A stretch of DNA of 64,000 bases. Origin: Ectocarpus siliculosus (taxonomy: Eukaryota > Sar > Phaeophyceae > Ectocarpales > Ectocarpaceae). The translations under genes and the position numbers were made by a program. The notes beneath the pieces were generated by a model that saw only the letters and a list, made by a program, of their open reading frames with translations, was not told the origin of the DNA and did not search any database. The stretch is taken from NCBI GenBank assembly GCA_000310025.1, contig FN649735.1, positions 2,864,229 to 2,928,228 on the forward strand. Reading direction: 5' to 3'. Numbering within the stretch: the first letter of the stretch is position 1; each line of letters begins with the position of its first letter. Positions 15,227 through 64,000 of this stretch are shown here, piece after piece.

Positions 15227-17541
15227 TTAGAGCGGGTAGACGCTCTGGCCCGTAGACGGGTTATAAAAGTATCGCCGCCCGGAGCGGTCGAACATCGGCT
15301 GCCAACCCGGCGGAGCCGCAAACTGCTGCTGCTGCGGCTGCCGCGGCTGCTGCTGCTGCTGTGGCAGCTGCGGCATTATCTGGGGAACCTGGGGAATCTG
15401 CGGAACCATCTGCGGGATCTGTCCCATTGGCGCGGTTATCTGCGGCTGGGTCATGTAGCCCATCGGCACCTGAGAGAAACACAGGGAGCATTTGGTGGCA
15501 TGCGGTATACTCGTTGTCAGTAATATTTTTCCTATGCATACATAGCCAGTCGCCCCGGTGGTCTCGTGGTAACCTCGAAACCGCTATTTAGTCGCAGAGA
15601 TCGTGAGTTCGAACCCCCATGGGATGAAAAACTGCGAATTTGCGGGTGAAAGCGAAAACAAGAAGCCGAAAATGCTCTCGTGAGTACCAAAACTTCGGCG
15701 CTAGCACCATCGACGAGGGAAAGGGACGGCTGGACCCTTCTCGCGATAAAAATAAATTCAGCACGCACCGCAGGAGGGAGGTGGGGCACGAAAAAAAAAA
15801 TATATATATATATAATAGCCCCGGTGTTTACCTCCTCCTGTTTGACCCTGTATGGTTGTAGTTGTACGAAAAAATACACTGAAAAGTGTAGTACACGTCT
15901 CACCACGAAAAATGGGGGGGGGGAATGTCGCCATAATAAACAGGACGAAAACAAAACACATACATCGAGGGAGCACGTCCTAGGCATGAAAGTAAAACAA
16001 ATAAGAGACGCAATTTCTCCCCGACCCTCATACCTGTCAGCGTCATTCGATTGTAGCCGGAACTGCTGCGTCGGACGCGTTCCGCTGTCTACTGCCCCAA
16101 AAACTCGTGAGACGGACAAGGGCGATTACCTACTACCACTTCCAAGCAGGATTCCAAACACAAAGGTCAGCCGGTTAGCGGGGTCGATGCTAACGAGAAA
16201 TACACGCACACACGCACCTGCATCGGCGGCTGCTGGTACACTTGCGGCTGCACAGGCACCTGCGCCTGCGGGGCCATCATGGGGTTGGCGGCGTTATAGG
16301 CGCCGTACATCTGGTAGGTCGTTTGCCCCGTGCTCGGGTTGTACCTGACAAGATTGGCCCAGAACGGCGAGTAGACCAAACAGGGGCGCTTCCGCCAATC
16401 AGCACACACACACCACACGCTTCCTGGCAGTACAGACAATTACAAGCTTGTGCGGTGGCAAAAAAAAGTAAGCAAGACCATAATTGTTATGCAAAATCAT
16501 ACCAGTCACTGCTACTCCTCCAAACGTGACCTGCAAGCAATCACGGATCCCCGAAATCGGTCGTAGTTACGGGCACAGCTGCCGTGATTCCACCAAAAGA
16601 GAAACGAATGCTCCGGAGATGAACAGGACCAAGGGTTCCTCGACAAAGTTGCCGTTGGGTGCCTCTGACATCGCGAAGGGGCTAGTCGTTCCGTCCCCGG
16701 TATCTGGACAACGGGCCACGACTGTTGTGCGCCGGAGGGTTTCTGGATCGTTCCTCGAATAGGTCCCTGCGGCGAGCCCGCCCAATGGGTATCGAGGTTG
16801 CCCTAGTCAGCTAAGCTTAGTGTAGAGCTTGTGTCTTGACCTTTGTCACAACATCACACGTGCTTCCACTCTGACAAGGGGCCATGTTGGGCATCGCGGT
16901 CGTGTCACGCGACTTTAGTATCCAGCGACACGTGGAACTGACTGATCCATGCTAGCAGACGCATCAGGTGGAGTGATGCCATTCTGGTGCTCGTGGTCGG
17001 TGGTTGTATTGCACCAACGGTACTGCACATCATACATTCACTGTCAGCAACTGAGTAGAAGTTGCCAAGTTCGTCACAACCCCAACAGGAAAGCTTGGTA
17101 AGAGAAAATGATCAGGAGGTGGTGCTAGAAGTAGACGTGACGGCTTCGTAGGATGAGCGCAACGTATTCAACGCACACGTTGTGTGCACCTTTTTCTGGA
17201 AAAGTTGGCGCGTGACCAAATCGATCATCTTGCCGCCCGCATGACCGCTAAAGATACGACATTTGGAGAAGCCAACCCGATCAGTTTTACAAACGAGAGT
17301 CTGCTCTAGGCACAAGAAGGGAGACAACAACGGCAAAATCAACAGCATTGGCTACAAATAACGGCAAGATCAACCACCATAGCACAAGCAGTACCACCAC
17401 CACCATCACCACCAACCACCATATCACCACCGTCATCCAACAACGGCAGCTACAATAACAACCCCAAGAGCAGCAGCAGCAGCAGCAGCAGCAACCATCA
17501 CATCACCACAGCCATCAGCAACGGCAGCTATAATAACGACC

Positions 17542-36311: not shown

Positions 36312-37386
36312 GCCTGCCTGCCTCTGTTTCTCTTCTACCTCTCCCTCGCTTTTTCTTCGGTTCTCTCGCTGGGGTTTCTTGCGCTCACTGCAGCTGCTGA
36401 CTGCCTCTGCCCATCGGGCCCCATCAACCGGCGGGCCCAACACCCGTGACCACTAGTACTTTCTGACTCTGGCTCTGTTTGTTCCACACTTCCACACAGC
36501 GTCGCTTGTCCCGCCCGTTTGGCGACCTTCCTTGGTTCTTGTCCGCATGTACCCTTCAATCCATGCACGCACCACCTTCAACCCATGTATCAATCCACGA
36601 ACCCATCCATCCACACACCATTCATACATCCACCCATCTATCCTTCAATCCATCCACCCATTCATGTATCCACCCATCCACACATCCATCGATGCATCTG
36701 TCTATCATCTATCCTTCATTCCACCCATCCATCCATCCTTCCGTCCGTCCACCAAACGCAGCTGGTGGTGATGCCCTACGCCGCGCTGCTCTCCCGAGAG
36801 GCTCGCGCCGCCATGGGCGTGAGGCTGGAGGGGGCTGTGGTGGTGGTGGATGAGGCCCACAACATCGTAGAAGCGATCAACTCGGTGCACAGCAAGAAGG
36901 TCGTGCTATCGGAGGTAAGAGTGAAGAAGTGTGCCGATGAAGCATGCCTTGTGAGGTTGTCATTGTTGTTCAACACACACGGCGGTTCAGGCACGCAGCG
37001 AGAAGAAGGGTGTGCTGCCGGAGGTGACGCTGCGCAGGGGGTCCGAAAGGGTACTAGCCATCCTGTAGCGATTGTGGTACATAGCGTACACGTGGTTCGG
37101 ATGTGCACACTTTTGAGGCCACGTTGAGACTCCGGCAGCCCCCTCGACCCTTGCTAGTGTCCGCTGGCACACGGTGGCCAAAATCCAGGGGCACACTCCC
37201 TCTCTCCCCCCTCCCTCCTCAGTGCTTCGGGTTGCAGGCGTGGAGGCTACACTTAAACATGATCGCTATTGCCCTCGTTCCCGATTGGCGCAATTGAAGC
37301 GGATCGATCCCTCCTCCCCTCCCTCTCCCAATCTTTTCACCGGTTGCCGTACCGCTGTCACGGTGGGAGGGGGGAATATTCTCCTA

Positions 37387-40400: not shown

Positions 40401-43400
40401 CGAGGTCTTCAGCTGCGGGCACGTGATTCCCAGGGAGAACCTGCTCCCGCTCTGCGTGTCCAAGTGCGTGCGCACATGCGCGTGTGTGCCTTTGTTGCTT
40501 GGCGTCGACCGCGCTAACCGGCGGACCATTGTGCCTTGAGTCGTTAGTACTAGCATCGACCGCGCCAATCGGTTGATCTATGAAGAGATGTCATACGACA
40601 AGAAAATGGAAAAATGGAGGTGTGTGTGCTACCTTGCTAGGCCGCTGATCGGGTGTAGAAACGCTCTGCCCGTGAAGTAGCCCCCACCTTGACCCGTCAC
40701 GGAAACTTCCACCGATTGGCGGCGGAAGCACCGGATTGTGCGCGTGGGACGTTTGTTTCCCCGCACATCTTGAAACGGCAGCGGGTTGACCAACCGCGAC
40801 ATGTGTGGAAGCGCGCTCTGATTGTCGTCAAGGACCAGCTGCGGCAAATTGTATTTTTCTTTTTGAGAGCGAGAGTCCTTTTGGTCCGCATGCGTGCGGT
40901 CGTGAATTGGTTCGTCGGGAGGACGTGTCTCCAGCTCGTGTGAATCCTTCGCCGTTCGCCAATGTGTTACAGGGGGAAAGGGAATGGACGTTTTTGGTCG
41001 GACGAGTATGACAAGGGGAATGGGAATTGACTTTTTTGGTGGGATTAGTATGACAGGGGGGACAGGGGGATTGATGTATTTGGTGGGATTGTTACGACAG
41101 GAGCAAACGTCTTTGGTGTGATTAATAGTATGACAGGGGGAAGGGGAGTTGACGTTTTTGGTGCCGTTGGTGCTCTCTTGCTAGTAGGAGCTCTCTCGAA
41201 GGGTGTGTCGTAACGAGTTCGCTCACGATTCCCAACATCGCAGGGGTCCCTCGGGGAAGACTTTCAACTTCACCTTCCACCGCCGCGGCACCGACGAGCA
41301 GCTGGACGAGCTCGGTCGGCTGATGACCAACGTTTGCAAACTCGTCCCTGGAGGGGTGGTGTGTTTCCTCGCCTCCTACGGATATCTCGATCAGGTCATT
41401 TTTTGTTTTTTTTACACCTTGCGCGCCAAACAACGCAGTGGTTGGTGAAAATGAGACATGCAGCATCTTTTGGCACGTGGCGGTATTATCGTTTCCTGTC
41501 GTTGCCACTTGCTACGAATCATGATGGTATCGGTGTGATGGAGGATTGATCGTGTCTCCTCGGCGCGTGATACTTCGGGGTAGCGTTTTTCGGGCGTGGC
41601 AGTTGCGGCGGGAGGAACTTTCTCCAGGCGCTCCTCCCAGATAACGAAGCAGTAGATACCAATTGGCAAGAGTCTCGAAGAAGCTCCAGGTGCCCACGCC
41701 GTGCCGCACACACGCATACCCTCCCCTCAACTTGTTGATGGACTCATATCGGACTGCCTCCCGCTTCTTGTCGTTGTTGGACAGGTTTTACAGAGATGGA
41801 AGGCTTCCGGCACGCTCCGACAGCTCAGCAAGTGAGTCTACACGGCCGCTCGCAGATTTGCTGCTGCATCGGCTGATGGTGGTATGCACTATCCAACGTC
41901 AATCTTGGTATTCCCCCAACCCTGTCACACGCTTTGTCGAACACCTCACGAAGCTTCTTCGCCAATGGCGCCTTGGGAGCCTGGTCGGTGAACACCCGAA
42001 GGCGTGCCCCCTTCTTGTCTTCGCATGGATGCGACGTCACTGTTCAAAAGGATCCCTGCGTGCATTGTCCGCAGCACACACACACACAACATTCTCCCCC
42101 AACACACACGCTTTCCCTTGCTGAAATTTGTCGGGATGTCGCCTGGCAGGCTCAAGTCTGTATTTTCTGAGCCACGGTCAGCCAAGGACGTGGACGCCGT
42201 TCTCAGAGAATTCTCCCTTGCCGCCAGGGCGGGGGCATGGAAGCCGACAACTAGTGGCGGCGGCGGTGGCGGCGGAAGCAGCAGCGGGGGGGGGCTGCTG
42301 CTGTCGGTGGTCGGGGCGAAGATGAGCGAGGGCATCAACTTTTCGGACGATCTCGCTAGGTACTGGTGTTGCTGGGGTATTATTTGTTGTTGCTTGGCTA
42401 TCGAAACGTCCTTCGACCTTTGGCTCAATTCCTTCGTTTCCGCTCAAGGAGAAGAGACGAAGTTGAAGTCAGACAACCTGCCCCCCTGTAGCCGTTCGCC
42501 ACCTCCCCCCCAGCAATATCATCCCTTACCCCCCTTGAACGAACGCTGTTGCACTCACACGTGGAACCTTCTCCACCTTCGCTGGGATCGTTTGGCGGCT
42601 TGGGTGGCGCGCTCTGGTAGGTGCGTGGTGATGGTTGGACTGCCCTACCCGGACAAGCGGGACGCGGAGTTGAAGCAGAAGATGGCCTACCTCGACGAGG
42701 CCTCTCCCAGCAGGTACGTATGTATACGAGATAGTTTTAGCCCCTGTTCTTGCCGCGAGTTGCCTGTTGTAGCAGTGAGTTCGAGAGCTGAGTACGCACG
42801 GCGAGACCTGTGGAACCCCTCGGGTGGCTGCGAGCTGCTCTCGGGCCAGCACATTCGTGTGAGTTTCTCGGCTGCGTGCTTGTTCAGAGTTGCTCGACCG
42901 TGTAGCACAAGGGGCACTGTACACGCCTGGACCGAAGAAACCCGCTAGTCCCAACCCATAGCATTGCATGTTGCACCTCCCGTGGTACCGGGTACCGCTT
43001 CACACGGTCTCACTCGTTTCTTTTTTCGTGCTTCTTCTAAACCAACAGCCGCGGGCGCGCAGGCCGCGAGTACTACAGCAGCATCTGCATGAGGGCCGTC
43101 AACCAGTCGATCGGGCGATCCATCCGACACGCGGGAGACTACGCCAGTATTCTTCTTGTGGACGAACGTTACAAGGACGACCAGGTGCGCATTGTTGCAC
43201 AAATCATGGCCGCATCGATGTATGCTGCTCTTGATCGTGTTTGGGTGTTATTTACTTGAGTTTTGACGATTTCCGTGGGTGAGTGAACGCTGTAAATCCA
43301 GTGCCGAGAAAAGAGTGGAAGACTGTACTACCCCGTGACCGTGGGTTCGGCCGATCGGACTATTTCCCAAAATGATGAGAAGAGCCTATGCTGTTGCTAT

Positions 43401-44948: not shown

Positions 44949-47900
44949 CTATATTCTCCTCGGTACGCAGAAAACCCTATTTCCTCGCTCGTTGACATAA
45001 AATGGAAACTGAGACTCGGGGTTATCGCCGGCACTCATCATGCTGTTACCGAGAGATGGCACAACCAGAGGTTGATTTTGGCCGCTGCCGATGTCGGAAC
45101 CGTGACTCTCATAGCTAGCACTGACACCCCCCGCGCGGCCGTCGCCCCCTTCTTCCCCTTGGGCGCCGGAGCAATTTTCCTCGGTCGTCGACGTTGTTTT
45201 CTCTGTTGTCGGGGCGTCCCAAGATGCCTCTTGGGTGGCCTCGTTGAAGTAGTAGTACACCTGCTGGTGGGGGCGGGGGGGCGAGATTAACAAAGCTTCT
45301 AGCCAGCGGCTGCTTTCGATGATTTTCTTGGCGAATGCACGTGCCAGACAAGGATCCGCGTTCATGTAGCAACGTTCACACCCTAATTACACGGTTTTTC
45401 TATGTGTGTGTTGATTCGCGTGCTTTCGAATCTGTTCAAGGGCCAGCATTCACCTTTTCGGTAAGCCTTTGACGTGATCAGCCGAGGCCAAACAGGAGGA
45501 TGGAAAATCATACAGGAGGATGTAAAACAAGAAATATTCGGTTTGTCCCACCGCCTCCTACGGTGGTTCCCTTCGGTTCTTGACGCGAGAAGGGTTCAGC
45601 CGTCCATCTCCTCTTCTTGGGTATTATCACAAACAGATCTCTTTCCGCCTCGATTCGCACATTGTTACTCCCGAGAGGGATTTGAACCCGCGTCTTGGTG
45701 CTAGAAGATATTGCGAGGTTTCCTACTGCGATGCCGTAGACCAGCTGGGCGACCGTCCTAAAACTCCCATGGTGTTCACCATTGCATTGTAAAACGTTCA
45801 CCCCAGGTCCTTATATAGCGTTCGAGCACCCAAAAAAAATGTCATGAGGTAAACAAATTCACCAGGGACACCAAGAATATAACGTTCCGCAGAGACTCAC
45901 ACCCAGAGCCACGCCATTAGTTAGAACCATGCCTTCTCCCGAGGGCAAGTATCGTTGTGGTATACATGAGTCGTGGACGGGGAGCAGCCACCATATCTCT
46001 GTACAATGAATCTGCGCGTTGCAAGTACCTGATATTCTTCGCTCCACAGCTGGGCCCATGTCGAAATGTCGACCGTTTCAACGATAGCGAGCTCCATGTG
46101 CTGCGCCTTCGGCTCGTCTTCGTTGACTCCGGCGGCGGTTGTCGAGCTCGCGGCAGCAGCTTTCAAAGCCGTAGGGCAGTCCCACGTGGACTCCCCGGTG
46201 ACGGAGTTGTACCACCACGGTATCGGCTCGTCGGCAGACTCCTCGTCGTAAAACATTTGCCAGTCGCTCGCATTTCCCCCCGCCACGGCGAGTTGCCGTT
46301 GTGGCTGACCTCCGTCTTCGCCTGAAATGTTGAGGGTTTAGAAAGGGAGAGATTATAGCCCACAGAAGTTTGTCCAACGGATAAATCAAAGGGCGGATGG
46401 AAAAAAAAGAGGGCGGATTATTTGCCCCAAGAGAAATATAATGTCTGGCGGGCAACGAGTGTGACATCGAATGGGTAAAGCGGGAGAGAAAATGATCAAG
46501 CGGAAATGACCACAGGCTTGATCGAGAGGGCAACCTGATCAAGTGGATAATGAGCCTGCGTCGATACCATAGATCGCTTGCAATGACCGTAGATCGGATG
46601 CACCATCTCGAGACAACATGAGCGGGTGAATCTTACCGGAAACTTACCGGAAAAGGGAGGGCGGAGGAAGGCCAAACAATATATGGAAACTGCATCGAGC
46701 GAGAAATTCTCTCCTCGCGTTGTTTCTAGGACCTACTCGCCTTCGTCGTTGACAATCAGCGAGCTGCCATCAGTCGCCGCGTCGGTTTCTACTTGGACGT
46801 TTGGACAATCCCAGGTCGATTCTCCCGTAACGGAGTTGAACCACCATGGAGAGGGCGGCTCCGTAGATTCGTCGTAGTAGATCTGCCACGACGACGCCTC
46901 TTCTTCGTTCCGCTGTCGCTGCAGTTGCTCCATGTCGAGGGCATCGGCGTCCTCGGCACTCATTAGTGTTCGCTCCAAGACTTCGTTCTTCATATCAACC
47001 TGTCCAGAAAGCGCTCGGTCGTGTTTGGGGAGGATACGGAGACAAGAGTATTGAATCCGATCTCAACAGAAAATGAGCACGATTTCCGAGAAATATTTCC
47101 AAGCTCAAACATTCGGTGATACACACCGCCCTCCCCATACCCCGATGTCGGCCACGTCTGGGACCCGCAGAGGTTTGCGTGCTCAGCACTGGCTGTCCGC
47201 GGGGTAACCCGCCAGCTACGCAACAATCTCCTACCTCGGCAAGCGCGAGATCGATTGCCTGCTGCCTTCGCGCAGCGGCGGCCTGCTCCCTTTTCTGCCT
47301 CCGCTTCTTCTGCTCCAGGTCAAGGTAGAGGCACAGACCCAGCGTTCCGTTTCCCCCCACTTTGGGATCGCCCGACGGCCGTAAGGGATACTCAGTCTTG
47401 AGGAGCATCTGTGTAAGGAGGGTGTGGCCAGGGGCGTGCAGCAGGGGCGGTGTACAACAATAAGGGGCGATGCATATCCGGCAACATATGTTGATTGAGT
47501 GCTCTCTTTCTAGTTGTCTTATTGCATTTCGAGGGGTGTCGTAAAAACAAATTTCGACACCGGTGTCGTAAACATCATTACCGTGATGTTTGCCGACAGC
47601 CATGCGGGTTGCCGAGAAAAACACTTGCTTTATTGAACCGGTTCATTGGTGTCTCGCGCATGAGGCACATCGATGTACTGAAGCAACAATAACCGCTAAC
47701 CTGCTGATCCGTGTTGCCGCCGTTCGCCCGGGCTTTTCCAAGCGTCAGTCTCTGAAGTTCCACCAGCTCGGCCATGTCAAGCTCAACTCCGCCCAGAAAG
47801 TCATGCGAACCTACCGCATCCCAGTCGTACAGCTCCACGCGCAGACGAGGGTTGGTGCTACGAGTGCCCTCCAGCCAAAAGTAGGGCTTGTCTTCCTCCT

Positions 47901-50900
47901 GAGCGGCTGCGCCGCCTGTCGCTTTCCTCTGTCTGATTGGGGCGTGCTCCGTGAACCAAACCGGGTTGAGGGTTTTATGTCGGACGGCGGTTGCGCCGAT
48001 CTCGCGACCGTCCCAGAACACCTGTTGGTTCAAACGCCACGGGTCCGCGAGCAATCAGTACATCGGGATGACATCGCTAAAATCGGGCGCTCCTGCAAAA
48101 GGATCTATGGCATGCCCGGCGAATTCTAATGCCACGCGCACGCGGGGACCACCACCTCGACCCAAACCTGTAGAATCCGAGTTCCAGGACTATTTTCGGG
48201 GTTACATGAGTCTGGGAACTTACCGCACAGTCATTACATCATTACGAATGTGGAAGATCCGAACTCAAGACATGACGATATGAATAATGCAGAGGGAAAC
48301 GTGACGGTGCGCACTATCACGTTATGCAACTGCGAAATGGACAAAAAATGTGTCAGACCCGGCGCGGGGAAGTGACAACAAACGGTGCATCAAGCCCACC
48401 TTCCCAAAGAGTAGTAAAAACTATCGGAAAGGGGCTCCATGAAATCCCGGATGGTACAGTGTGTGAAATTTGATCTAAAGACCCGCCATTTGAACGGCAA
48501 TCTCGATCGGTGTGCTGGACGCAACGCATCGCGGAATAAGGCGTTCGTTGGCATGCGCTTAGCGTGTGCCGGATATTCTTGGATTTCTACATTGGTGTGC
48601 TCCAGAGAGATACCCCCGTGGAACACGATACTACTTTGGGAGCTATCGTCAAGCACCGGATACCTTGGCGTAGGGATCGCTTTTCCCGAAAAAGTCAGCT
48701 TTCACCAGGCCGGACGCATTCACCACCCATAGCTTTCGGTCGCGCATGCACAGCTCCCGGTCCATAGACTGCAGCAGTGCCTGGGAAAGTAGGCATTTTG
48801 GGTTCGCGCGTTTGTAGGCGCTGTTGGGCATTGAAATGACCGAGCGCAATATCCGTCGAGAGCAGCAATCGCATTGGTTGTTCTTATCCAAAGACCTCCG
48901 CCAACTTCGTACAACGGCTGGAAAATTCGTTTGATGTCGCCGTCTGGGGAGCTAGCTTTTCGTACGGGGAGCACCTTGCACGACACCCGGCAGGAACGAC
49001 CGCCGAAAACCGCCAAGACAAATTGAGCTATAACGGATGGAATGACTGTGCTCGATAGCTCCCCAGTTCCATGGGTTGAGGTGGCGCCGTGAAGGGCCTT
49101 GCTTGGTTTCTGATATCGTGCGATTTGATACCTGAGGTATCAGCGGGCTCTATCTCTTGTTGACGTAACCGAGCTCAAATGTTACAAGAGGATGTTCTCC
49201 CTCACGCAGGGCGCTGCAAAGAACACCACCGAGCGAATATTTTGTGGGCTACGCTTCTGTACACGGCCGTGACTCACCAAAACACCGACGTCGGCGACAC
49301 CTCTGGTGATTTCGGTGGCGCTCCGCTCTTTCGACCGCTCGTACTCTTCAAGACTGCCCGGAAGAGGCAGCTTCGTGTTCACGGCGACCGCGATGTCGCC
49401 CAAGGACCGGAACGGATTCCGATGTTTGGTGATGCCAGATTCACTGGAAGCCGCCGTCGTCGATGTGTTGGTGTCTGGCACTAATTCCAACCATGTAACC
49501 TCGGCGCTGGCGTCATCGTCGACGTTTGCTGTGCTTGCCATCGCCAAGATAGCATCCGCGCCAAGCTTGACACAGCCAATCAAGTCCGCGGGACCCAGGA
49601 GGTCGTGGTCGTAGCACCGGATCTGCGCTCTCGAAGGGACGTGCGGGATGAGGGACTCGGCGTTAGTCCGGAGGTTCGTGCGAGGTGAACGAGTTCCTCG
49701 AAGATATTCGTGTAAGGAGCGCTCTCAGCAGCCGGATGAACCTATGTGTATTACAGCGATACGCTAGCCCTTTGGAGTACACGTGAACAAATCATAATCG
49801 CGTGTCGCGGTCTCCCTCAAAAACCATGTATGTCCGTGGGTAGTTGCGACGGGTTCACCTCTGCGAGCGTCACGGGTCGTGAGCTTGTCGCACCGTACTA
49901 CCCTTGCACTGTGAGCTCACCTCCAAGCACATTGGCGGCCAGGCCTGTTCCCCCCATTTCTCTGTTTCTGGGACAAGGAAAGGAAGATTGAACCACCCCC
50001 CGCCCCTCGTTGATCTAACGCTCGTGAACCCGCCCTTGCTGCCGTCGGCAACCCAATCAGGATCCCGCGTGCCGTGCCGTACCGCCGTACGCCCAACCTC
50101 CTGGCCGTTCCATAAGGCCACGCAGAACGGATCGCTTAGACCCGACAGATCCATACCTGAGCAGGGGAGGGGTGGTCAGGGTTATCGCATTTATGCATAC
50201 GCGATCCGGATAGTCAAGTATTACTTTCGTTCACGCAACAACAACAAAAACGTCGTGTTCGAACGTTCTCACCTCCCTGGACAAGTGCCGCATACGTGGT
50301 GGGTTCTTTATCGAGAACGAGAAAATTCCTTGGCGCTTCAACGAAGAACAATCAGTTCTTAGTCGGGAAGCAGTTCAATCGGGACTGAAAACAAAACGGT
50401 AAGCTTCCTCGCTGTCGCAGGCTGATGACCGTCCTCTTGAAATACAACATCTACTCTCCGAATTCGAAATCGAATGACTTGGCTCGCCTAGAAGGCCGGC
50501 ACCCCTCGCGATGAGCACGGAGAGACCCGCTCGCCGCAGCTCTAGTTTCTTCGCTTCGCGTTCTTTCTCCAGCAGCTCGAGCTCCTTCAGCTTGCGCAGT
50601 CCTTCGGTCCGCAGCTCTTCTGCTCTCCTCCGAGCACGAGAGCACCTTGGACATTGACCGTGCACACAGGCGATACCAATCCGTTGAGGGTTGATGCATT
50701 TTGTCACAAAATATCAACAACAATCGAACGGCCTTGCTATCTTCTCGCAACAACGCTAGTTATGACAATAATGGGCAGCCTATTAAAGCGTCATATGTGG
50801 ATTCTTCTCTTCTTGCCTAATACGCCCCTACGCGTTTTCGGGGCAATGTACAACCCCGAGCACTTCGGCAAGAATGCCCTACTTCAGAGTACGCACTACA

Positions 50901-53900
50901 GGATCGAGTATTCCCGAATACCTCCAGCGACGTTGTATGGCAGCGGCAGCTGCACCCCTCAACGCGACCTCCACTTTGTAGACTCTGACCCTCCGGCATG
51001 CTCTCAACCCGCGGTAGTATTTCTGTATGCAGGTTCCGGCGTTATGCCTGTCCATCGTCGCGTAATACTCCCACCACTCCCGGGCGCTTCGGAGCGCATC
51101 AAGCGCTTTTCGCCACAGGCGCTGAACCGTCTTAGCGGCCTGGTGCTCCAACGGGGCGTACAGTCCCATGTCGTACGCTTCGACGAAAAGCACGGGGGCA
51201 TGTTGCTGGACCGGGTGCGATGACGATCGTCTGTATGTAGTGGAGTCGGTGCTGGTCGCCAATAAGTTCCTGCCTTCTCTCACTGTTCGGAGCTCCTGCG
51301 AACCCGGCCATGACACGCTTCCATCCAGACCCGACAGCGTCAAAGGCAATCGGCCCGAAACTAATCCTTCGCTGAGGCCCTTTGGACCAATTCGCTTGGT
51401 TCTGGCTTGTTCGCCCCAAGTCACGGCGCGTCGCGAACCCAACCGCCAAGACTTACGAGGGATGAGCGTGCTCCGTCTCTCTGTCAACGCAAGCCAACCG
51501 TCGTCCCAAGGCCACGAGAATCGGAGGTACGGCAGGCGCTCCTTACGGCAGGGGTCCCTAAAGTCTCCCACAGAAATGCCATCCACCGGTAGGCGGCCGA
51601 CTTCGGCTTGCGTCGCTCCCGCTCCTGACAGAATAGCCGTCGGACCCCTTGCCGCGACGGGCGAAAAAGAAAGCAAGTGCGGGACGGATGCTGGAGACAA
51701 TTCCAGCTGGAGGTTCACCCGGATGCGAAACCCAGTGGTTTGATAACAACGGGCGATGGGTCCGTTGTTGCTATGCCTATTCTCGCCGGTGACTTGTGAC
51801 TCCCCCGGTGTCGGACCTCCTTCTTGCTTGTGTTCGTGGACGCCGGCCGCTCTTGTTGGTGCGACGAACTCTAGGTTCACCATGGAGGGTTGAAGTGGGT
51901 GCATGCTCTTCGACGATGTCAACCGTCCGTCCGGCGGTTCGACGAAGTAGTCCGTTGAGCTTGCCGCAAGGCAAGACAGTCCGTCCCAGTCGATCGTTAC
52001 ACTTCCCAACGTCGCCACAGCACCAGTCCCTTGCTCCGTACTCTCCCCCGTGTGTGTTCCAAGCGGCGTAGCTACTTCTCGGAGGGTTAAAGAGAGATCG
52101 CTTCGGCTGTCCCGCGGTATATCCAGCAGAATGTCTTTGCTCAGACCTGATGTTGGTGCAAAGTTGCCACACAGAGGAGGAACTTGGATCTGCCATTCCA
52201 ACGGTGGTCCAACTGTTCGATCGCAGCCGTTCCACCCAACGGTAACAGTGGACGAATCCGACAGGGAGGGACCGTGCCGCAGCGATCCCGGATGCGACGT
52301 GCGGGTTGATCTACCCCCTCCAAGGATGCTTAGGCGTAGCCGGCAAACAGAGTTCCTGGGTGCCACTTCGGGCACGCGGGAGGGGCGCGGTGTGCGTGAC
52401 GGCATGAGACGCTCGAGGCGAACAGACATCGCTATCCGCGCAGGTAAGATTCTCCATGCTCGACTTTCTCTCATGCCCCCACTTTCTGGACAGAAAGTGG
52501 ACTGCGGGTGGTCCTTGTCTGCTGAATCACCACAGATACCATCGTTCTTGGGGTGGGCTGGACGATTGCTCCCTTCGTCTGTTGAGACGCACAGGGAACA
52601 CTGGAGATCAGTGTATCCTTTGTCTCCACCCTCGCTACCCTCCTCCTCGGCAACGGCGTCTTCAGGGCAAGTCGTGAATCGGTAAGCCTGTTCTTTCATC
52701 GTTTTGAGTGCCTGATGGTGTTCGGTGCGAAACATGGGGAAAAAACAACACGCGCGGCGAATAGAGGTGGCAGGACCATTCGTACGCGCAGCGCAAGGGC
52801 TTGATTTATCAGCATGACCTGCGTTGTGCAACGCTCCGAAATACCTTCTTCAGAGTGAGACGTCTTCATCGGATACGTGCCCCGCCATGAAAACATGCCC
52901 ATTGCCGGAGGACGGGTCGAGGGACCGAATGCAACCGAATTTATAGAATACTCTTCTCATTGTCGCTCTCCCTCACGATGTTGTCCTTTTTTTGCAGCGT
53001 CCCTCTCCCTCCTCGCGTACACCAATACCCAAACCGGCAGATGACGCGGAACTCTTCTTTTTTTTCTTCCACACAATTGGTCACATCCTCACCTGCCAAC
53101 CTACGACGACCCTTCCCAACAGGTGGTGAGCCCCGTCATCTGGACCTCCAAGATCACCATCCCGCCCTTTCGCGGTGTTACTGTCCGTCGGTGAATGAAG
53201 CAGACGAATGTGATGCCAGATATCTTGAGCCTCCTCCATGCGCGGGTGCTGCATGAATTGCTCGGTAGCAATCACCTCAAGAACGAGACGGCAACAGTTC
53301 CAAGGCGCGCCCCTAGGCAGCTCCAAGAGGCACTCTCCCGGAGTGAGAGGCAGCCCCGTGCTAGGACAAATTTCGAACGAGGCTACCCGCATTCCGCACC
53401 AGATCACCACACAAAATACGCCCGAGGCAGGACTAGCCAGTGATAGTGGAGAAGACGGAACCATCGCTACGTTTGTTGTGTTGTGCAGGGCGCTGCCACT
53501 GTTGCTCGAGGGTTGTTTCGCTGAGGCCGGCGAGCCGCCGACGATCAGATGGTTTTGACGCGACTGAATAGACGGCCGCATCCTCGTTAAGCTGCTGCCC
53601 CGACTAGGCTGTTGCGCTGAAGTGCATTCGTCGTGCGTCGCTGATCCTCCCGGATTTGCCCTAGCATCCTTCGTTGGACTCAAAGAGTTGGGCACTCGGC
53701 CTAGCATGCGTGCCAGCGAAACCCACCCGACGTGCATCCTCAGCCTACGGTTCACCGCGTTCGTCCTGCGCCTGCTAACTTCCGGGGCGTCTTCGTCCCC
53801 CACCGCGTCTGTCGCCTTGCCGATGCCACCACCACACGTGCTGGCTGTGGCGGCAGTAATCCCGATGCGCAGGCTAACGGATCCAACGACGCTGGAATTA

Positions 53901-56900
53901 CGTTTCTTTTTCGGCCAACTCCGCCTTGGCCTAGCTTCGTTCTTTCTAACAGGGCGGTCGCGGTCTGGGACCGTTTGTGCTGCCCTTTCCGCGTCCCCTA
54001 GACAAAGCAGGGGGTGGCTACTTGTGAAGTCTGGGAACCTTGAGCTCGTGAACGGGCCCTCTAAGCGACACCTGGCGGGACGGCAGTTCCGGCAACAAAG
54101 AGCTGCAGACTCAGATGCTGCCAAACACGTTATGCAAGCAAGCGAACTCGCCTGATTTGGTTTTGAAGCATTTGCTCACGCGATCACATGTTCTGATGTT
54201 TTTCGCAGCGGGTACGATAGAAACATTGAGGGTTCCTCACCTTGCAACGAGCGAGTCTTCAGGAGGGGCTGAGGCACCCTCCGCAGGCGCAGACGTATCT
54301 GTGTCTGCAACGTAGATGTCGATGTCGAGGACGTTGTCCGAAACTCTCCTGTCCATCTGTACCGCAAAGATCTGTAGATGCAATGTGGTGGAGTCAGACA
54401 ACACAAATACTGTGAATGTCATTCGTGCGGCAGACGAAGCGTCGAGGACATTCGATTCTACCAGTGGGAGTCCAAGTAAGTTATGTCTCCTGCGGTAATG
54501 TATTGTAGGCTACTTATGTTGGCAGCAGCGTGTGTCGGGTAGAGAACGAGAAAACAATTTAACGAGGCTTCGAGTCTATCCGATACGCACCTGCTCGTGC
54601 CAGGTTGGCTCATGCAAATCGCGACACACGGGAGTTTGACCCACAATGCTCCCTCCCCACCGCAGCAACGCGAAACAGCCAGAACCAGGAGTAGCATGCG
54701 GGAGCTGTTTTTTCGCTTTCAACACGGCGCCGACTAACTGTATCACGATACAATCTTCCTCGCTGCCCATGAGGGAGGAGACGCTTGCCCCGAGTACCCA
54801 AGGCAGGCTCATGTTTGCGATCTTCGGGTGCACGGACGAGGGAAGGGCGGAATAGGGGTGAGAAGGGCGCCGCTGTGTGTGTTGGGCGGGGGGGGGGGGG
54901 TAACTATGTGCTACAACAGAGCATCTAGCACGGTGAAAACGAACCATTCGTGAGAGTGGCGCACAACGATGCCAGTACTCTCCCACAACATCTGGGAGAA
55001 AATGTTGCTTTGGAGAGAGACTACAGGGGAGACGATTCCCCCCACGGACGCTGCTTGAAGAAGAACTAATGATCCTGACGCAAACCTGGTCTTCCAAGAG
55101 CGGTAGGGGATATTTCGGCAACTAAGCATGTTCCTCGACTCATACCTCGGCCTTCCAGTTTTTCTCTGTGTACACCACTGTGGCGCAAGAAAGCGTGCCG
55201 ATAGACTCATCGCCTGGTTTTCCCGTCGTCGGTGCTTCTTTCTCCCCTTCCCGACAAAGCTCGAGCGTGTGATACTGCAAGCCAGCTTTCCCGTCAGCTT
55301 GGCTGATGTTCATGGCATCTTCTCTCGTTGGCTGTGCTTCAGCACGGGTTCGTACTTCGACCATTCTTGGTTGCCCGAAGGGGACGACACAGCAGGCGGC
55401 GAAGGGCGATGATAGAGTACCTGTCAATGAATCAGCACTCGGTATACACTAAACTGGCAGAGTTACTGGGGGTATGTCCTGACACAGGCGACACCGAATT
55501 TTGATACATCTTTGTGTGTCTGGTTACCAAGCGCGAGCTGCACCCCGGAATCCCGACTGCCTGCATGCGAAATATGAGAACGATCGACCTTCTCTTTCCG
55601 ACACACATCTCATGCTACGTCGTGTGATGAGAATTCGCGTCACAGCAAGAGGGAATCATGCGCATCTGTGGTACCATACAACGGACACGAGAGCCGTAGG
55701 CTCCCAACGGATACATCCGTGGACTGCCCCGCTAGACCATGGAAACTGGGGTAGGTTAGAGATAGAGTGCGAGAATTTACACTGCAATTCCCCTTCGAGG
55801 AGCTTGGCATCCCATTCCCTCCGACCACTTCCCAGATCCGATGATGGTGCCTAGTTTTACTGATATGTAGAGTGTACAGCTTGGCCAGCCTTCCACCTAC
55901 CTCCCAGGCCACACACGACACACACTCCTCACCCGTCTTGGCATTCGCGAAGAAACAAATGAACTTCCCCGATGAAGTCGTTGGCACCGACTACGTCCTT
56001 GTCCCACACCTCCACCCGTATCTCGTGGCCGACCAAGCCTAGCCCCTGCGCAAGCGCCCCTTCCCTCCCGAACACCTCGATCTCGATCCGTTGGTCCCAT
56101 CTGGGTGCGAGAGTGCCCCAGCAGACGCGCGTCTCAGCGAACCAGACGCGGTCCACATAGACAGTGCAAAAGGGGTCGCTCGTGCCAGACACGTCAAGCC
56201 CTCTCCGAAGGCGGGCCCCTTGGAGCAAAAGCCTCAGCCAGCGCGTGGGGCGCTGAGAAGTCGTTTGCTCTTTCAGAGACTCCGGTTCCCCACCCTCGCC
56301 TTTCGCTACCAACATCGTGTTGGTGGTGATAGATGATCTCGTTGTTGTTGGAACATTATCGTTGCTTTTGCGCTGCTCAGCTGCCCTCATGAGCCGAGGA
56401 ACGGCAACATCAGCGAAGCTTACGCCATCAACAATCTGTTTCAACGATATGCTGAGGGTAATCCCAGATTCGTTCATGCCCTTGCAAGAGGGAGGTAACA
56501 GAAGGGGCAGGTCGATGCGGCCGTGTGGAGGGCTCGTGAGATGCTCCCCGTGAATGGTTACGATTCCGAGCGAGCGCCCGAATACGTCACGGCAACCTGT
56601 TGTAGCGTTGTTCACACCCACCCCAATCCCACCAGCCTTTAGATCGGCGGCATCTTTGCCTGCGACGGACTCCCCCCAGGAGGCGCGGCATGGAAGCATA
56701 CCGCCGGTGCTCTTTTTCCCCTCTTTGCGCGTGCTTCCGTCGAAAACCTCCAGCATCAACTCGTCTGCTACTGTGGGGCTTTCGTTCTGAGGAACAACGG
56801 CGGTAGCACTGCTGCACTCGTCAAGGCTAGGCTTTCGGTAGCCGCGATCATCATCAGATAGCATCTCATCCGAAGAGGCCCACCAAACCGGATTCCGCTG

Positions 56901-59900
56901 ATACACCGACGCAGGCGCCGCGTGGCCTAATCCGGTGGTGTGGCGCGTTTCCTGAGCAAAACGGGACGCTGAGAGAGTGCTTCCAACCTGTCTACCGTTC
57001 CAAAACACCCGGCAGTACCCATCGCATCCCGCGGGCAACCCCCGTGCATCGAGACAGCGAATCCCCAGACTGGCCTTGCGACCTGCCTCAACCGTAAGAG
57101 TGGTATCCCCGGAACTGAGTGACGATTGTGCCGGCCGACTGCACTTCAACTCCGAGGTATTTGTAGCCACAGCTCCGACTTTTGTTGAACGGGCCTCACG
57201 AATGGTGGCGGGAGAACTCGTCGAGGCGGCGGGCGCTTGCGATATCCACGCTTCTGAGTCGTCGGTGTCGTTCTCGATCGAGATACGGATGGAAATCACC
57301 CCGGCGAAGGCCTGCCCAGCCTCGCCTCCGTCCGCCCCGTGCTTGGATCCCTGGCCATCAGGAGCGCGAAGCCGAAGAAACACCCCGGGAATCTTGTTGT
57401 CCACGTGAGCGGTGGTCCCCACGCCCGGATCCTGCACTGCGGACGCCTCGATGAGCGGAGCGATGCCGTAAGGGCCACGCAGGTCCACGCTCCCCAAGAG
57501 CTTCCCCTTCTTCCACTTCCTCCTGAATGTGTCTCGATCCATGTCCCACACCTCCAGGCGCAGCTCCGGGGCATACGCTCGCCAATCGACTGACCTCTGG
57601 AGGCTGGATCGCCCACTCCTCCCGTCTCCAGAGTGGAGGGTGTTTGATATCGGCGGGGGTAGCAGGGGGAGTCGGAACGTACTCCCGGCGGCCGAAAACA
57701 CGGGATGTAGATCGTCGCGAGCGATCGGCGTGCGGCCAACCTCCACCCCGTTCCAGAACACCAGAACGCAGGGATCGCTCTTGCCGAGCATGTCCGCACT
57801 CCTCAAGTTCTGGCACTCTTGCACTTGGAGCCTGAGCCGCGGTCGCCCCGGTCTGGCGCTAACGACGTGCCCGGCTACATCCAGCCGAGCGAAAGGAGAA
57901 CGTGTTGGCGACTGACCGTCTTCTCCCTTGCTGTGCTTGGCATCGCTCGCCTCCCCCACCGAGGGAGCCACCGTCGTCATTCCCACCGACCGCTGGCAGC
58001 CGATCGTATGGCGCAAGAACCCGGCATCGAGGGTCGCACGGGCTACCACCCTGGCCCCGCCGCCCTCACCTTTCTCGGAGGTTGAATCTCGAGTTGCAGT
58101 TGCGCGCTTCTTCAGAAAAGGCAGCCTTTGCCCGCCAGGAGCAACCGACCCACGCCCGCCTCCCGTGTCGCCGCCTTGGACGATTTCTAGGACTACTCTT
58201 ACCTCCGATTGGTCTTCGCTCCGAAAGTCAGGGATCGATGAGGTGGCCCCACCTCTCCCGTTCCGGCTCAGCCGCTTAACATCCGCCACAAGGGCGCTAG
58301 GCGGGATGGTAAACGACGTGCCGGGCACGATGGTTGTACCAGAATGGATGCCGAAGAGTGCCGTTCGGCCGAGCTCCTCTTCCTCAACAACGCGCCTGTT
58401 GTCGTTGTGGCTGCGGTCACCTGCGCCATGTCGGCGTACGATGGACAAGTCGCCCTGCGCGCCAGCGGCAGAGCTAGAAGCGGTAGCCGTCGGGGATACC
58501 CCGCTTTTCCCGTCGCTGCCCGGATATGAACCCTGCTCGGGCGCAGCGGCGAGCACTTGGCGTGTTGCTACCAAGAATAGACCGGACCCTCCAGCTCCTG
58601 TCCATCTGGTGTTGCTGTCGTCGTCGAAGGAATTAATGTGAATGACCAGGGGCTGAACCCGAAAGCATAGGGGGCTGCGTCGCGCGCACAGGACGTTCAC
58701 CAAGTCCTCGGCTACTCCCGTTGCTTTCGCCCGAGCTCCTTCTTTGGCAGTGTTGTCGTCGCCTCTACCCCCGGGATCCAGCGTACCGTTTCCAGCGTCG
58801 GCGCACTCTTCGGTTGGAAGGCAAGAGCACAAGGACGTTACGCCGCAACGTACGCGGAAATGTATCTGCACGCTGTGCTTGCCTCGCGCCTCACAATGCA
58901 TTTTCATCGAAACCAGTTACAAGGTATTCAGGAAAATCGAACGGAGCTTTCTCTACCTGCTTGGTCCCTCCTAGACTGTACGCCCAAAAGACGCGGTGCC
59001 AATAGGTCGATTCCGATCCCCAGCAGGACATATTCAAGTGTCGCCGGGTGTCTTTTCGACACCTCGCGCGCCCCTCCCGGAATTTCTGAGCGCAACTCTT
59101 ACCATCTTGCTGTTGCCGTAAGATGCGCGATCCCGTGTCCTCGAGCGCAACGGCGAGCTGTGCTTGCGCCGCTACCACTTGTCCGGGCTCCAGCGCCAAC
59201 AAGGTGAGAGTCAGACGTGCTGGAGCCGCGGCCGAGGATTCCCTGTAGTGCCCGTCGTCCTCACGAGAAACTAGGGCGAGCTTGTAGGGCCGGAAGGCCT
59301 GAGGGTAAAACAGTAGAAAGAGCGTAGGGTGCGGGGGCATTTTCTTTGGGAAGAGTAACGCGTACAACGACAAAAGCTTTTACTCGGTGTAGGCCGCCTG
59401 TCATGCCGATGGACGTGCTGTTAAAGGCGATTAAAGTGACGAACCCGCCCCTAGATGAAAAAGGCAAAGCAGTCACTACGCCACTTTCAGCCTCTGTAGG
59501 CCTGTTTGTTTCTCTAGAACCGGTTCCAGTAGGACGACTCATGGCATCGCGGCAACGCTGTAAATATACTGCACACACAGAAGGCCTTGCCTCAGGATTG
59601 GGTAAGAAGTGAGGGAAATGGTCGGGGAGGCGAATCCGTCCATTTCCGCTCTCGGCGATAAAGGCACTTCGGCCTCCAGGCGTGGCGTTTTGTACCTTCT
59701 TGCACATGCGCAAGAGCTCGGTGCCCTCTAGTTCGACCTGTTTGAACGAACGAACGCACCATCCGTAACCACCGTAGACCACAAGGGGGGATATGAAGTA
59801 GGGCAGCGGTATTGGCGAGGACATTCAACCACAGGCTATTCCCGTATACGAGAGCTTGCAGTGGGTACAGGCGAGGAGTATGTCCGTGGTTTTTGATGAG

Positions 59901-62900
59901 AACTGTGCATACGTCTAAACAAGCGTAGGTTTTGTGCGGTACGAGGCTTTCACGCGATGAGTTTGGAAAACGGCCCGAAGTATCCGGTAGACCCTCTTGC
60001 GTCTGGACCGCACCGCACATTCCGAAAGACGCTTTGTCGGAAGAGCACACAAACACATATATATGTGTCGAGATGGGTGTCAGTAATGTGGGGTTGTCAG
60101 GTTCTCTCAGAAGCTAGCGGCAAAGAACAACCCGCGTTAGTGCGAGTTACCGCTCTGTTCGGAGTGGAGAACACACAAGTGCAGTCGCCGAAAATACGTT
60201 GCAGGAGAATGTTGATCGCGCTACATCGGGTCCCCATCGTATTTTGGGGCCACGCTTTTGAAAAAGCCTGACTGCCAGGAAAAGGGCACGGGTTTAAGCA
60301 TCTGGCCCCTGTATTGATATGCGAACAGTCTGAACTGCTCTGAGTAGCATAGGAATTCGAGGGCTAACTGTCCCACAAGCCAAATGTGGAACTCACCTGG
60401 CCATGGCAGTGCTTGCCTTGCCAAACCTCAACGCGCAGATGAACACCATCATCGAGACTGGCACTGGTGCTGTCTCCACCTGCGGTGTCACCGCCTCCAT
60501 CACCAGCCCCTTGCACATTGGACCCCAACAGGCCATCAGCGGTCTCTAGGTCAACGCTCTGACCCGCTTCGTTATCACCGCTAGCGCCATCACCGTGGGG
60601 GAGAGGCAAGACGAATGATTCCTGCTCCCAGTGGCCCTCCATCGTACCTCCTACTCCTCCCCCCCCCGACGCATGAACGGCCGCCGCGGTGGCGTTTGCG
60701 ACGGACGCGGCGGCGGTGCCTGCGGCGTCGCGAATCTTGTCTGCAAGGTTTTCTCCGCCCGCGAGCACGTCCACCTTCTTAACGCTGTCGTTGCTGTCGC
60801 TGCCTCTCCCCGGGATGCTATGAACGTAAGCTGCCGGAGCAGTGGCGGCTGGAGCCGGCTGGTGGAGAGGTTCTTGCTGCGAGGGGGTGACACTGCTTGT
60901 CCGCGCCACCTTCCTCGTGTCGAGTGAGTGCACACCACCACGCGTGGTTTAATTTCGACGGTGTTTCGTGTTGGGGGGCACAAAAGAACGGACAGCAGAA
61001 CAGCTTAGTCCCGGCTTCACAGAATCCATCCATGTACAAATAAAAAAATAGAGCGAAGGCCTTCGGTGTGAATGCAATTGGATTTGTTTTTAGTAGTAAA
61101 TCATTGTGCCGTTGACGGTTTAGTTTCTGCCGTCGCCACGGGGAACGGTACCACTGTTATTCCACCACGGCACCGCCACCCCCAGAGTTTGTCGTCATGC
61201 CATCCACGCCAGACCTACTCCTTACCTCCTCTCCACTCCAAAAGATTCTAGCGTACACGGCGTTTCCTCTTGCTGTGAACGGGGCACTGAGGCCGGAAAC
61301 CCCTTCCACCTTGACGAACACTTCCTTCTGGGCGGCCGGAAGCCGAGGCAGAATTGTTTCCAGAGCGCTTGGTTCTTCCTCTTCCTCTCCCTCTCCCTCT
61401 TCGTCATGTTCATCGCCATTGAGCTCCACATCCTCCCGGCGATCGTGTTCTTCGTGTGTTCCTTGGTGGTCGTCCTCTTTGCAACCCTCAACCAGCTGCT
61501 TGTTGACGTCACCCGGTTTTTCCTGTTCATGTTGTGTGATTCCCCCAACGATGGGTGATATTGATGTACACAGCAATCGTTTTTTGTTTGAGAAGTGTTG
61601 CCGTGCAGTATAAAGCGCATATCGTGCCCAGGTTCGTCCGAGTGGCAATTGAAAAACCTTCCGGTAAACCGCACGATGTAACATTTCGACGCATCACAAA
61701 TGACTCCGCATAGTATCAAGCGAGGCCGTCATCAAGGGTTTATCGAGGCCACCCCCCAAAAACCCCGCATGTTGTAACATTTCGACGCACCGCAAATGAC
61801 TCCGCATAGTATCAAGCGAGGCCGTCATCAAGGGTTCATCGAGGCCACCCCGCAAAAAACAACCACTGCTCCCCACCATCCCATTGAACACGCGCGCCTT
61901 TATCGGAATCCTACTGAGCCACTACATCGCCGACCTATCTCGCTTAAGGCGACAAGCTTGTCTTCGCCAGCGCTACCTTGTTTCGATCTCCTGCTAGAGA
62001 GGGCACGTCGACGTCGTCCTTTCCCACAGGATGAGCTTTTCGATGCTGTGTGCTATCGTTTGCTTCGTCTGGAGCGACCGTGATTGTCCGGTGATCGTGG
62101 GTCGGCAGTTTGGGATCTTTTCGCCGTAGAGCGGCCCTTCGTTTGGCCTCTCGGGACAGACTTATCCTCTCCTCCTGGAGATTAGCAGTCGTTACGGTAT
62201 ATCGGATATGAAAAAAAAAAATCAACCAACATACACTATAGGAGAAAATGTTTAGGTTGCCAAGTCTAGAGAGGAGTGCAGAAAACGGGCACACGGACCT
62301 CCCCGCTTCGGGCAAACTCTGCAATATGACGGCCAGGTCGGGACAGCCAGTCGTCAAACTATTAGATTGCATTCACTCTGAAGATCAAACCAATACGTTC
62401 AGCCCATCTTGCTGCACTGCAACCACACACAGCCTCCCCGCACACACCAAATCCAAGATATGTATCTATGAGGTGAATTTCAACCAACGGTGATGCAACA
62501 TAGCCTGAGCATATATATCGAAGCAAGACCTTACACCAATGCCCTCGACAAGGCAGAACGTCGAGACGTTACGCGCCGTCTAGGTGCTCGTGTGCTCGTG
62601 CGCCCATCCACCGGACGGGAAGGAATGCCACACAAAATCTCGGGTAATAAAGCGCAGACCTGTCCAAGTTCTGATGTGGACCTCTTCGCCTCCAGGAACT
62701 GCGCCCTTTCCGCCCTGGACGTCTCCCTCTCCCAAGCCCGTACAAAGCGCGCGGCGTTCTCTTTGGCACAGTCGTTGGCACTTCTCCCCCTCGAGGTAGA
62801 TCCTGCGTCAGCCAGCAGGGCCCTCGCCTCGTCGAGTTTTTCCCTGGCCGCTCGGGTCGAATCGGCGAGGCTTTTTAACTTCTTGGAACGGTATCGTTGA

Positions 62901-64000
62901 AGAGCGGTCTGCGTTGAATACGGAGTGGATGTGATCGAGGTCGGTGTTCGGCTACCAGACACGTCGCAATAAAAGCATACTGTGTGCGTTCGGGGGCACC
63001 TGCATGTACAACGTACACGTCTCGAATGGGTGAAGACGTCAGAGAGACGGATAGGATGTTTTGCTTTCCGGGCCCGTACAATTAACTTTCGTGGGAACCC
63101 TGCTCCCGTCGTGGCTAGACTAACTGACAACGTCAAAGCCCCCCCCCCCGAAACCAGCCCCACCCGTCACTCTATGGGCCCTGGATTCAATACCACGCAA
63201 TTGTGGTCCTTCCGCAGCCCTTGATTCGATTCTGAACCTACCCCACAATCTCAAGGCCTTCGCAGCAAGCATAAAAAGCTTTCTACCTCGGAGATCCGCG
63301 TCCCGGGAACCTTCGCCTCAGGGTTGCTTCCATTTTCCTTGGCCAGCAGACCGGGAGATTCCGCGATCGCGCTTGGTCCGTTTGGTATGTTCGAAGTACT
63401 CGGTCTCGCGGTGGCAAAAACCCTTCTGAGGGACAGGCTCAGCACTCCCCCTGTGCCGCCGTAGGCCTCGGCTGCCGCTGGTAGCGTTCCCGCTACTGTG
63501 TCAACCATGCTATTCTCGTCGTGTCCCGTCTCCGGCAGCTGCCCCTGCTTCGTATTTTTCACGGGCGATTTGAGATTCAAGTCAATCAAGTGGAGCCTTG
63601 GTGAACACCCCTCGATTTCACCCGCCGTGCCTCGGTCCTCTCGGCTAACCCCTCTTTCGTCTTTATCCGCGGGCGCAGGTGACGACATGACCTCCTGCAG
63701 CAGGTCGGACGGAACTTCCACAGCTCCCAACAGGACGGGGTCTCCCTCTGGAACCCTGTTCCACACCTCCAAGGTCAACGCTCCCGAAACTCGGTCGGCC
63801 CGCCGGGATGGGTGTTGGGGTGGCCGCAACCTACCGCCCCCGCCGCTATCGGCCGTCTTAGGAGTTCCTCTTGACGGGTTCGTTACGCACAGGAGGCTGT
63901 CTGGCAGACGGAAGTCGGTTGCCCACATAGGCTCCGACGAGTTTGGGATCGTCGTGGTCCGTCCCACCTCGAGGCCGTTCACGAGGACCACACAGTACGG
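44949..64000 (-). CDS. Giant multi-C2, IQ and WW domain protein (5' end outside window)
   Basis: This is the 3' part of one long gene. Exons 5' to 3': 64000-63287 (open at the edge), 62908-62660, 61522-61226, 60909-60397, 59737-59696, 59298-59103, 58882-55933, 55365-55146, 54821-54591, 54371-54241, 54071-53093, 52711-50922, 50645-50503, 50156-49921, 49622-49278, 48974-48906 (doubtful), 48780-48664, 48021-47701, 47408-47235, 46999-46793 (donor doubtful; 46737 also possible), 46304-46029, 45260-44949. This gives about 3,503 residues. At least seven C2 domains are clear, for example VLVNGLEVGRT, GKSDPCVLVFWNGVEVGRT, GTSDPFCTVYVD with WDKDVVGANDFIGEV, LSDPFCVALWNGQEVGRT and GKSDPYAKVFWDGREIG with YDWDAVGSHDFLGG. 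Acidic Ca2+-binding loops are kept in several. Near 51.1-50.9 kb are IQ-like motifs (AAKTVQRLWRKAL, AGTCIQKYYRG, AAAAIQRRWR), which usually bind calmodulin. A coiled coil follows, and three WW domains end the protein. No membrane helix is seen. A membrane- and Ca2+-responsive scaffold is the likely role, by inference. It could be two genes, but phases join throughout except at the doubtful exons. Confidence 0.8.
45545..45770 (-). repeat. tRNA-derived SINE, near-complete copy
   Basis: On the minus strand the head has an A-box-like CGCCCAGCTGGTCTACGG and, at tRNA spacing, a B-box-like GGTTCAAATCCC with a T-arm-like stem (GCGGG / CCCTC). The tail has GGACGGCTGAACCCTTCTCG, then CACCGTAGGAGG, as in the 15.6 kb copy. 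It lies in the last intron of the giant C2 gene, in sense orientation. Anticodon-arm pairing is not evident, so it is not called a tRNA gene. Confidence 0.75.
61676..61860 (+). repeat. Tandem duplication, two units of about 96 bases
   Basis: Both units contain TAACATTTCGACGCA, CAAATGACTCCGCATAGTAT and CAAGCGAGGCCGTCATCAAG, with only a few differences. It lies in intron 2 of the visible part of the giant C2 gene. Confidence 0.9.

Follow-up and report, generated by a model that had tools for sequence, protein, structure and literature searches.

C2 domains that bind membranes in a Ca2+-dependent manner carry, as a rule, five aspartates in loops 1 and 3. Chains of several C2 domains are a feature of the ferlins, and C2 and WW domains are described together in the membrane-anchored calpains (types 3 and 4) of Ectocarpus and oomycetes, with type 3 reported in Ectocarpus siliculosus (PMC10762896). 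The gene described here lies in a 64,000-nucleotide window of E. siliculosus (the whole stretch of DNA that was analysed; contig FN649735.1, positions 2,864,229 to 2,928,228). Its product shares a multi-C2 chain with the ferlins and C2 and WW domains with these calpains, but neither a calpain core nor a membrane domain was found in it. We consider it about an even chance that this single gene encodes a soluble, Ca2+/calmodulin-responsive membrane scaffold of approximately 6,400 residues, as its sequence suggests. Literature searches found nothing on this gene or architecture, although an absence there is not proof.

Protein searches returned 5, 8 and 15 proteins, from which the true relatives were picked by reading: four Ectocarpus proteins, one Scytosiphon protein, one EukProt protein (P0011) and three metagenome pieces (P0012-P0014). 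Three orthologues, all unnamed products, served as guides for the exon model. These were P0001 (Ectocarpus sp. 6 AP-2014; 6,248 aa), P0003 (Ectocarpus sp. 13 AM-2016; 6,168 aa) and P0004 (Scytosiphon promiscuus), which were 94, 89 and 56% identical, respectively, over the aligned part; P0003 ends at or just past the first WW domain and P0004 is without approximately the first 2,760 residues. Doubtful exon borders were read in the sequence and corrections were made by hand. Thirty kb beyond the window were added for the gene, and a simple gene finder was trained on 200 kb from the opposite side.

The hand-corrected model runs on the minus strand from a start codon at 76300, beyond the window edge, to 44949 (window numbering; features of this gene are on the minus strand throughout). 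It comprises 35 exons encoding 6,381 aa, with a single terminal stop, none internal, consistent phases and 34 introns, three of which are GC-AG. The window holds the 3' part of the gene (44949..64000; approximately aa 2794-6381), that is, exons 14-35, the first of which is truncated at the edge. It encodes approximately 3,588 of the 6,381 residues, close to the 3,500 residues of the first-pass annotation, whose 22 exons correspond to these. That annotation also placed the end correctly, 44949 being the last base of the stop codon in exon 35, but the 64000 that it gave as the other limit is merely the edge of the window. When exon 21 (2,875 nt, 957 aa; 55933..58807), which encodes three C2 domains, was searched against the genome, it matched itself and three other places at the C2 level (38-39% identity); the gene appears to be single-copy as judged from that one exon.

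Nine junctions interrupt a C2, IQ or WW unit (11/12, 13/14, 21/22, 23/24, 26/27, 27/28, 28/29, 30/31, and 34/35), and these predicted units lying across introns support one gene independently of the guide proteins. A junction was counted as spanned by a database protein when at least four of 12 flanking residues were identical and no gap was present. By this measure P0001 and P0003 each spanned 29 of the 34 junctions, P0005 spanned 19, P0004 15 and P0002 nine. Four Ectocarpus models (P0001, P0002, P0003, and P0005) share the first exon and continue through exon 14 and further. No sign of a break was seen between the mid-protein IQ block and the WW exons, the place where the first-pass annotation had proposed to look for separate genes.

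Read from the N terminus, the chain has 11 IQ-like motifs and two cysteine clusters, then a long series of C2 domains with low-complexity linkers between them. After these come a weak IQ block, a charged coil, a pair of C2 domains whose Ca2+ sites are complete, a second charged coil and three WW domains. Profile searches on the spliced protein, which the first-pass annotation had recommended, detected all three module types. A C2 profile derived from five other giant proteins (72 C2 segments) found seven clear domains in the full chain at 22.1-83.3 bits, beginning at aa 2510, 2769, 3890, 4426, 4640, 5682, and 5907, and two weak matches at aa 3244 (6.0 bits) and aa 4143 (10.9 bits); the best of 20 shuffles reached 2.5 bits and the reversed protein never scored above 0. 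Profile-profile windows recovered the same nine domains, with the best window per domain at approximately 85-99.7%; none of 157 reversed windows exceeded 2.4%. Scored exon by exon, the Pfam C2 model gave 79.1 bits for exon 21, 33.5 for the exon 31 frame and 18.1, under the cut-off, for the exon 28 frame. The claim of at least seven C2 domains in the window held with the weaker matches included. Six of the seven clear domains lie in the window or are cut by it, the domain at aa 2510 being wholly outside and that at aa 2769 lying across the edge, and a count of seven in the window therefore needs the weaker domains.

Three C2 domains have all five Ca2+-site aspartates in the alignment read by eye, and a fourth has four, in agreement with the earlier report of several intact acidic loops. 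The complete sites are in the domains beginning at aa 4426 (exons 21/22, 55155..56237; 54.0 bits over aa 4426-4530, the last strand in exon 22 placed by eye), at aa 5682-5803 (exons 27-29, 49539..50533; 58.0 bits, the first intron being GC-AG) and at aa 5907-6017 (exons 30/31, 47758..48732; 83.3 bits). The four-aspartate domain is that at aa 3890-4013 (57474..57845; 58.8 bits). The aspartates of these four domains are the same in Scytosiphon. Acidic loops are lacking in the domains at aa 2769-2922 (exons 13/14, 63614..64000 and on to 64434 outside the window; 36.8 bits) and at approximately aa 4640-4701 (exons 23/24, 54300..54779; 22.1 bits, N-terminal limit placed by eye). The weak matches are a region with a long insertion at aa 3244-3460 (exons 17-19, 59708..61333; approximately 85-90% in the profile-profile comparison) and a half domain at aa 4143-4179 (56976..57086; 95.7%).

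A possible tenth, degenerate C2 domain inside exon 26 (51686..52360) is weakly suggested by a low-confidence fold model (predicted local distance difference test score, pLDDT, 49.2; predicted template modelling score 0.49). Neither profile method matched it. Foldseek returned nothing for it at E ≤ 0.001, and its C2 rows were interspersed with secretin rows of low probability; the VIA rows were nearly all C2 proteins, but these had been pre-selected by Foldseek. The AlphaFold model of exon 21 (957 aa, 5 sequences) had a mean pLDDT of only 28.1.

The N-terminal IQ array and the two cysteine clusters (72067-76300) were missed by the first-pass annotation because they lie outside the window. The array scored 31.7 bits over five stretches, above the Pfam cut-off for IQ of 20.3 bits; 11 IQ-like motifs were counted there with a loose pattern and seven with a stricter one, both run without a shuffled control. 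The cysteine clusters (aa 830-853 and 908-945) matched no Pfam family at E ≤ 10 and did not qualify as B-box zinc fingers. The mid-protein block that the annotation had described consists of three IQ-like motifs (aa 5575-5651, exons 26/27, 50624..51130); its three stretches were recovered, but at 18.2 bits, and the corresponding region passed the cut-off in two metagenome relatives (P0012, 20.8 bits; P0014, 21.5 bits) and failed in P0013 (13.3 bits).

The three C-terminal WW domains proposed earlier stand: together they scored 44.9 bits on the spliced end, where the Pfam cut-off is 26.9 bits, and each fell under the cut-off when scored by exon (23.8, 15.8, and 15.7 bits). The Pfam matches are WW1 (aa 6130-6160, 46802..46894), WW2 (aa 6199-6230, 46173..46268) and WW3 (aa 6269-6295, 45210..46058), which is divided by intron 34. 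They are preceded by a charged, probably coiled-coil segment recognized by eye, without a coil predictor (aa 6068-6106, 46964..47315). The C-terminal sequence FPFYVNERGNRVFCVPRRI (44952..45008), of which 16 of 20 residues are kept in Scytosiphon, is perhaps half a WW domain, judging by eye. The chain terminates in the WW domains and a polar tail. A membrane anchor was not found in the whole chain, the highest 19-residue hydropathy mean being 1.7 at aa 4930, in line with the annotation, and no catalytic domain was found in Pfam scans of P0002 and P0004 (E ≤ 0.1) and P0005 (E ≤ 1), which together cover the chain. In the database model of P0001, the WW2 exon is read in the wrong frame and WW2 and WW3 are lost.

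Between the Ectocarpus model and Scytosiphon, identity amounts to 70-78% in the strong C2 domains (87/124, 95/135, 95/122, and 86/110), and the WW domains are similarly well kept (21/30, 25/35, and 19/29), above the 52% of two linkers (134/257 and 89/171); constraint is therefore greatest at the Ca2+-competent C2 domains and at the WW end. The C2-C2-WW-WW-WW end is shared by the Scytosiphon protein. P0011 contains the C2 end, WW2 and WW3 (60% identical over 334 columns), followed by TPR repeats, perhaps from a fused neighbour, and P0012-P0014 cover exon 26 at 48-50% identity.

In the scaffold that we favour, which is Ca2+-controlled as the first-pass annotation had suggested, calmodulin would bind the N-terminal IQ array, and a rise in Ca2+ would dock the three complete C2 domains, and perhaps the four-aspartate one, on an anionic membrane. 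The degenerate C2 domains would act as spacers or protein contacts and the WW domains would hold proline-rich partners; the outcome would be partners tethered to the membrane under Ca2+/calmodulin control. The observation itself is the parts list; the scheme follows what is generally known about C2, IQ and WW domains.

Several observations weigh against this reading, some concerning function and others the unity of the gene. Ca2+ sites are retained in just three or four of approximately 10 C2 domains, the degenerate C2 domains (32/62, 85/152, and 84/164 identical in Scytosiphon) are conserved no better than the linkers, and the mid-protein IQ block falls below the Pfam cut-off. A structural scaffold is a tenable alternative, one we would sooner expect to be wrong than right, in which the main job would be Ca2+-independent, most C2 domains would be protein-contact or packing modules and the few Ca2+ sites would be secondary; with similar reserve, such a protein could be likened to centriolar or ciliary C2 proteins. 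The conservation of the three complete Ca2+ sites in Scytosiphon speaks against it, as do fold matches that are unspecific and come from a low-confidence model.

As to the unity of the gene, the self-trained gene finder divided the locus into three genes, and other penalties fused it with far-upstream exons, up to 92981; gene finding from sequence alone left the limits undecided, the first run having fused everything. P0001 and P0003 extend no further than WW1 or just past it and P0004 begins at approximately aa 2760, so the full chain is not represented in any one database protein, and only Ectocarpus models, perhaps from one pipeline, connect the N-terminal half with the rest. Because the orthologues guided the hand-set final exons, the junction match with P0001 and P0003 is partly built in and is agreement short of independent proof. 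The divided gene prediction and the late start of the Scytosiphon model are what would be expected of two transcripts or genes arranged head to tail, an N-terminal IQ/cysteine-rich protein and a C-terminal C2-WW protein. We regard this as improbable, since P0001, P0002, P0003 and P0005 all start with the one first exon and continue past exon 14, the junctions 11/12 and 13/14 fall inside C2 domains, and P0004 may be just a truncated model. The predicted split at 55929 is false, the donor at 55933 having been read through.

Membership of a known C2 family (ferlin, MCTP, extended synaptotagmin, NEDD4-type ligase, or calpain) is very improbable. The top PDB-sequence match of the C2 domain at aa 5907 was otoferlin, at E 1.1e-15 summed over several C2 domains, with a best stretch of 15 bits; the other defining domains of these families and an anchor were not found, which refutes membership as far as the Pfam models scanned reach. 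In scans of P0002, P0004 and P0005, a ferlin assignment failed for want of FerA, FerB or DysF matches, a NEDD4-type E3 ligase for want of a HECT domain and a type 3 or 4 membrane-anchored calpain for want of the protease core; the hydropathy profile of the chain likewise gave no C-terminal transmembrane anchor of the ferlin kind. MCTPs and extended synaptotagmins were set aside with neither a PRT_C nor an SMP domain nor an anchor present, and with fungal tricalbin matches that covered approximately 20-26% of the query. A retroelement or viral origin was dropped after the only test made, in which 58500-64000 had no match in a phage collection.

The soluble scaffold that we favour belongs, as a chain of at least seven C2 domains without a catalytic domain, to a descriptive grouping of giant protist C2 arrays, and by their sequences such soluble-looking arrays recur (P0007, P0006, P0008, P0009, and P0010). 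P0007, a 3,758-aa protein of the pelagophyte Chrysophaeum taylorii, has 15 Pfam C2 stretches and a WW domain over the cut-off; it differs in having fn3 domains and EF-hands and no IQ match, and its alignable similarity is chiefly C2. P0006, P0008 and P0009 have 12, 11 and 10 Pfam C2 stretches in 3,436, 3,357 and 4,094 aa, respectively, but neither WW nor IQ matches in Pfam scans; P0008 has a GAF match slightly under the cut-off. P0009 is a separate giant C2 protein of Discosporangium mesarthrocarpum, an early-branching brown alga, and resembles P0006 and P0008. The most informative comparison was with P0024, an unnamed 1,317-aa protein from an ENA metagenome contig, whose coil-C2-C2-WW order is colinear with the Ectocarpus C terminus (25% over 551 columns, E 3e-21). 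A second, weaker alignment (E 0.001) covers another WW pair, and three IQ-like patterns are present. The two proteins thus have the C2-C2-WW order in common with detectable homology; P0024 differs in having two C2 domains only and WW (15.7 bits) and IQ (14 bits) matches under the Pfam cut-offs, and both of its C2 domains match the Ectocarpus domain at aa 5907 best, which speaks against strict one-to-one pairing. No relatives of P0024 were found in viral or prokaryotic contigs. Two statements of the first-pass annotation are not supported in light of these proteins: that C2 arrays elsewhere lack WW domains, given P0007 and the calpains, and that nothing else joins C2, IQ and WW, given P0024.

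Other features were noted in and near the window. In another gene of the same genome (G000:C2:5897405-5914650), the model appears to join several IQ motifs to C2, with limits that vary with gene-finder settings. A WW domain in a different gene of the window (15239-15313, minus strand) scored 35.1 bits, over the cut-off, and a genome search gave 75 WW matches. The plus strand carries two open frames with ankyrin repeats (5122-6303 and 10989-12302) and DEAD_2 and Helicase_C_2 matches (36450-37124 and 41992-42945) that are likely exons of one XPD/FANCJ-type helicase gene, although joining them is a guess. Intron 34 contains a stretch resembling a tRNA B-box (45560-45800); it has two partial matches elsewhere in the genome, at 75 and 83% identity, and may be an old repeat; ARAGORN with bacterial settings found no tRNA there and Rfam gave no match.

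The modules and their pairwise combinations exist elsewhere; as read from sequence, the full combination of IQ array, C2 array and WW domains in one chain of approximately 6,400 residues was found here in Ectocarpales only. Tentatively, and with more doubt than confidence, we propose an unnamed family of ochrophyte Ca2+ scaffolds whose core would be IQ-coil-C2-C2-coil-WW. P0024 would show this core in compact form, and in brown algae of the Ectocarpales the protein would have reached its present size by gaining an N-terminal IQ/cysteine region and a long, mostly degenerate C2 run, so that one molecule would couple calmodulin, membrane and proline-rich partners. The C-terminal C2-C2-WW module offers small, testable fragments. 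Even if the protein proves ordinary, soluble C2 arrays with WW domains would be a recurring ochrophyte design. Complex multicellularity arose independently in brown algae, and little has been written about the Ca2+ effectors of this group. If the reading is true, a conserved giant in which calmodulin-type, membrane-type and proline-binding modules meet would qualify directly as a candidate link between Ca2+ signals and membranes or the cytoskeleton.
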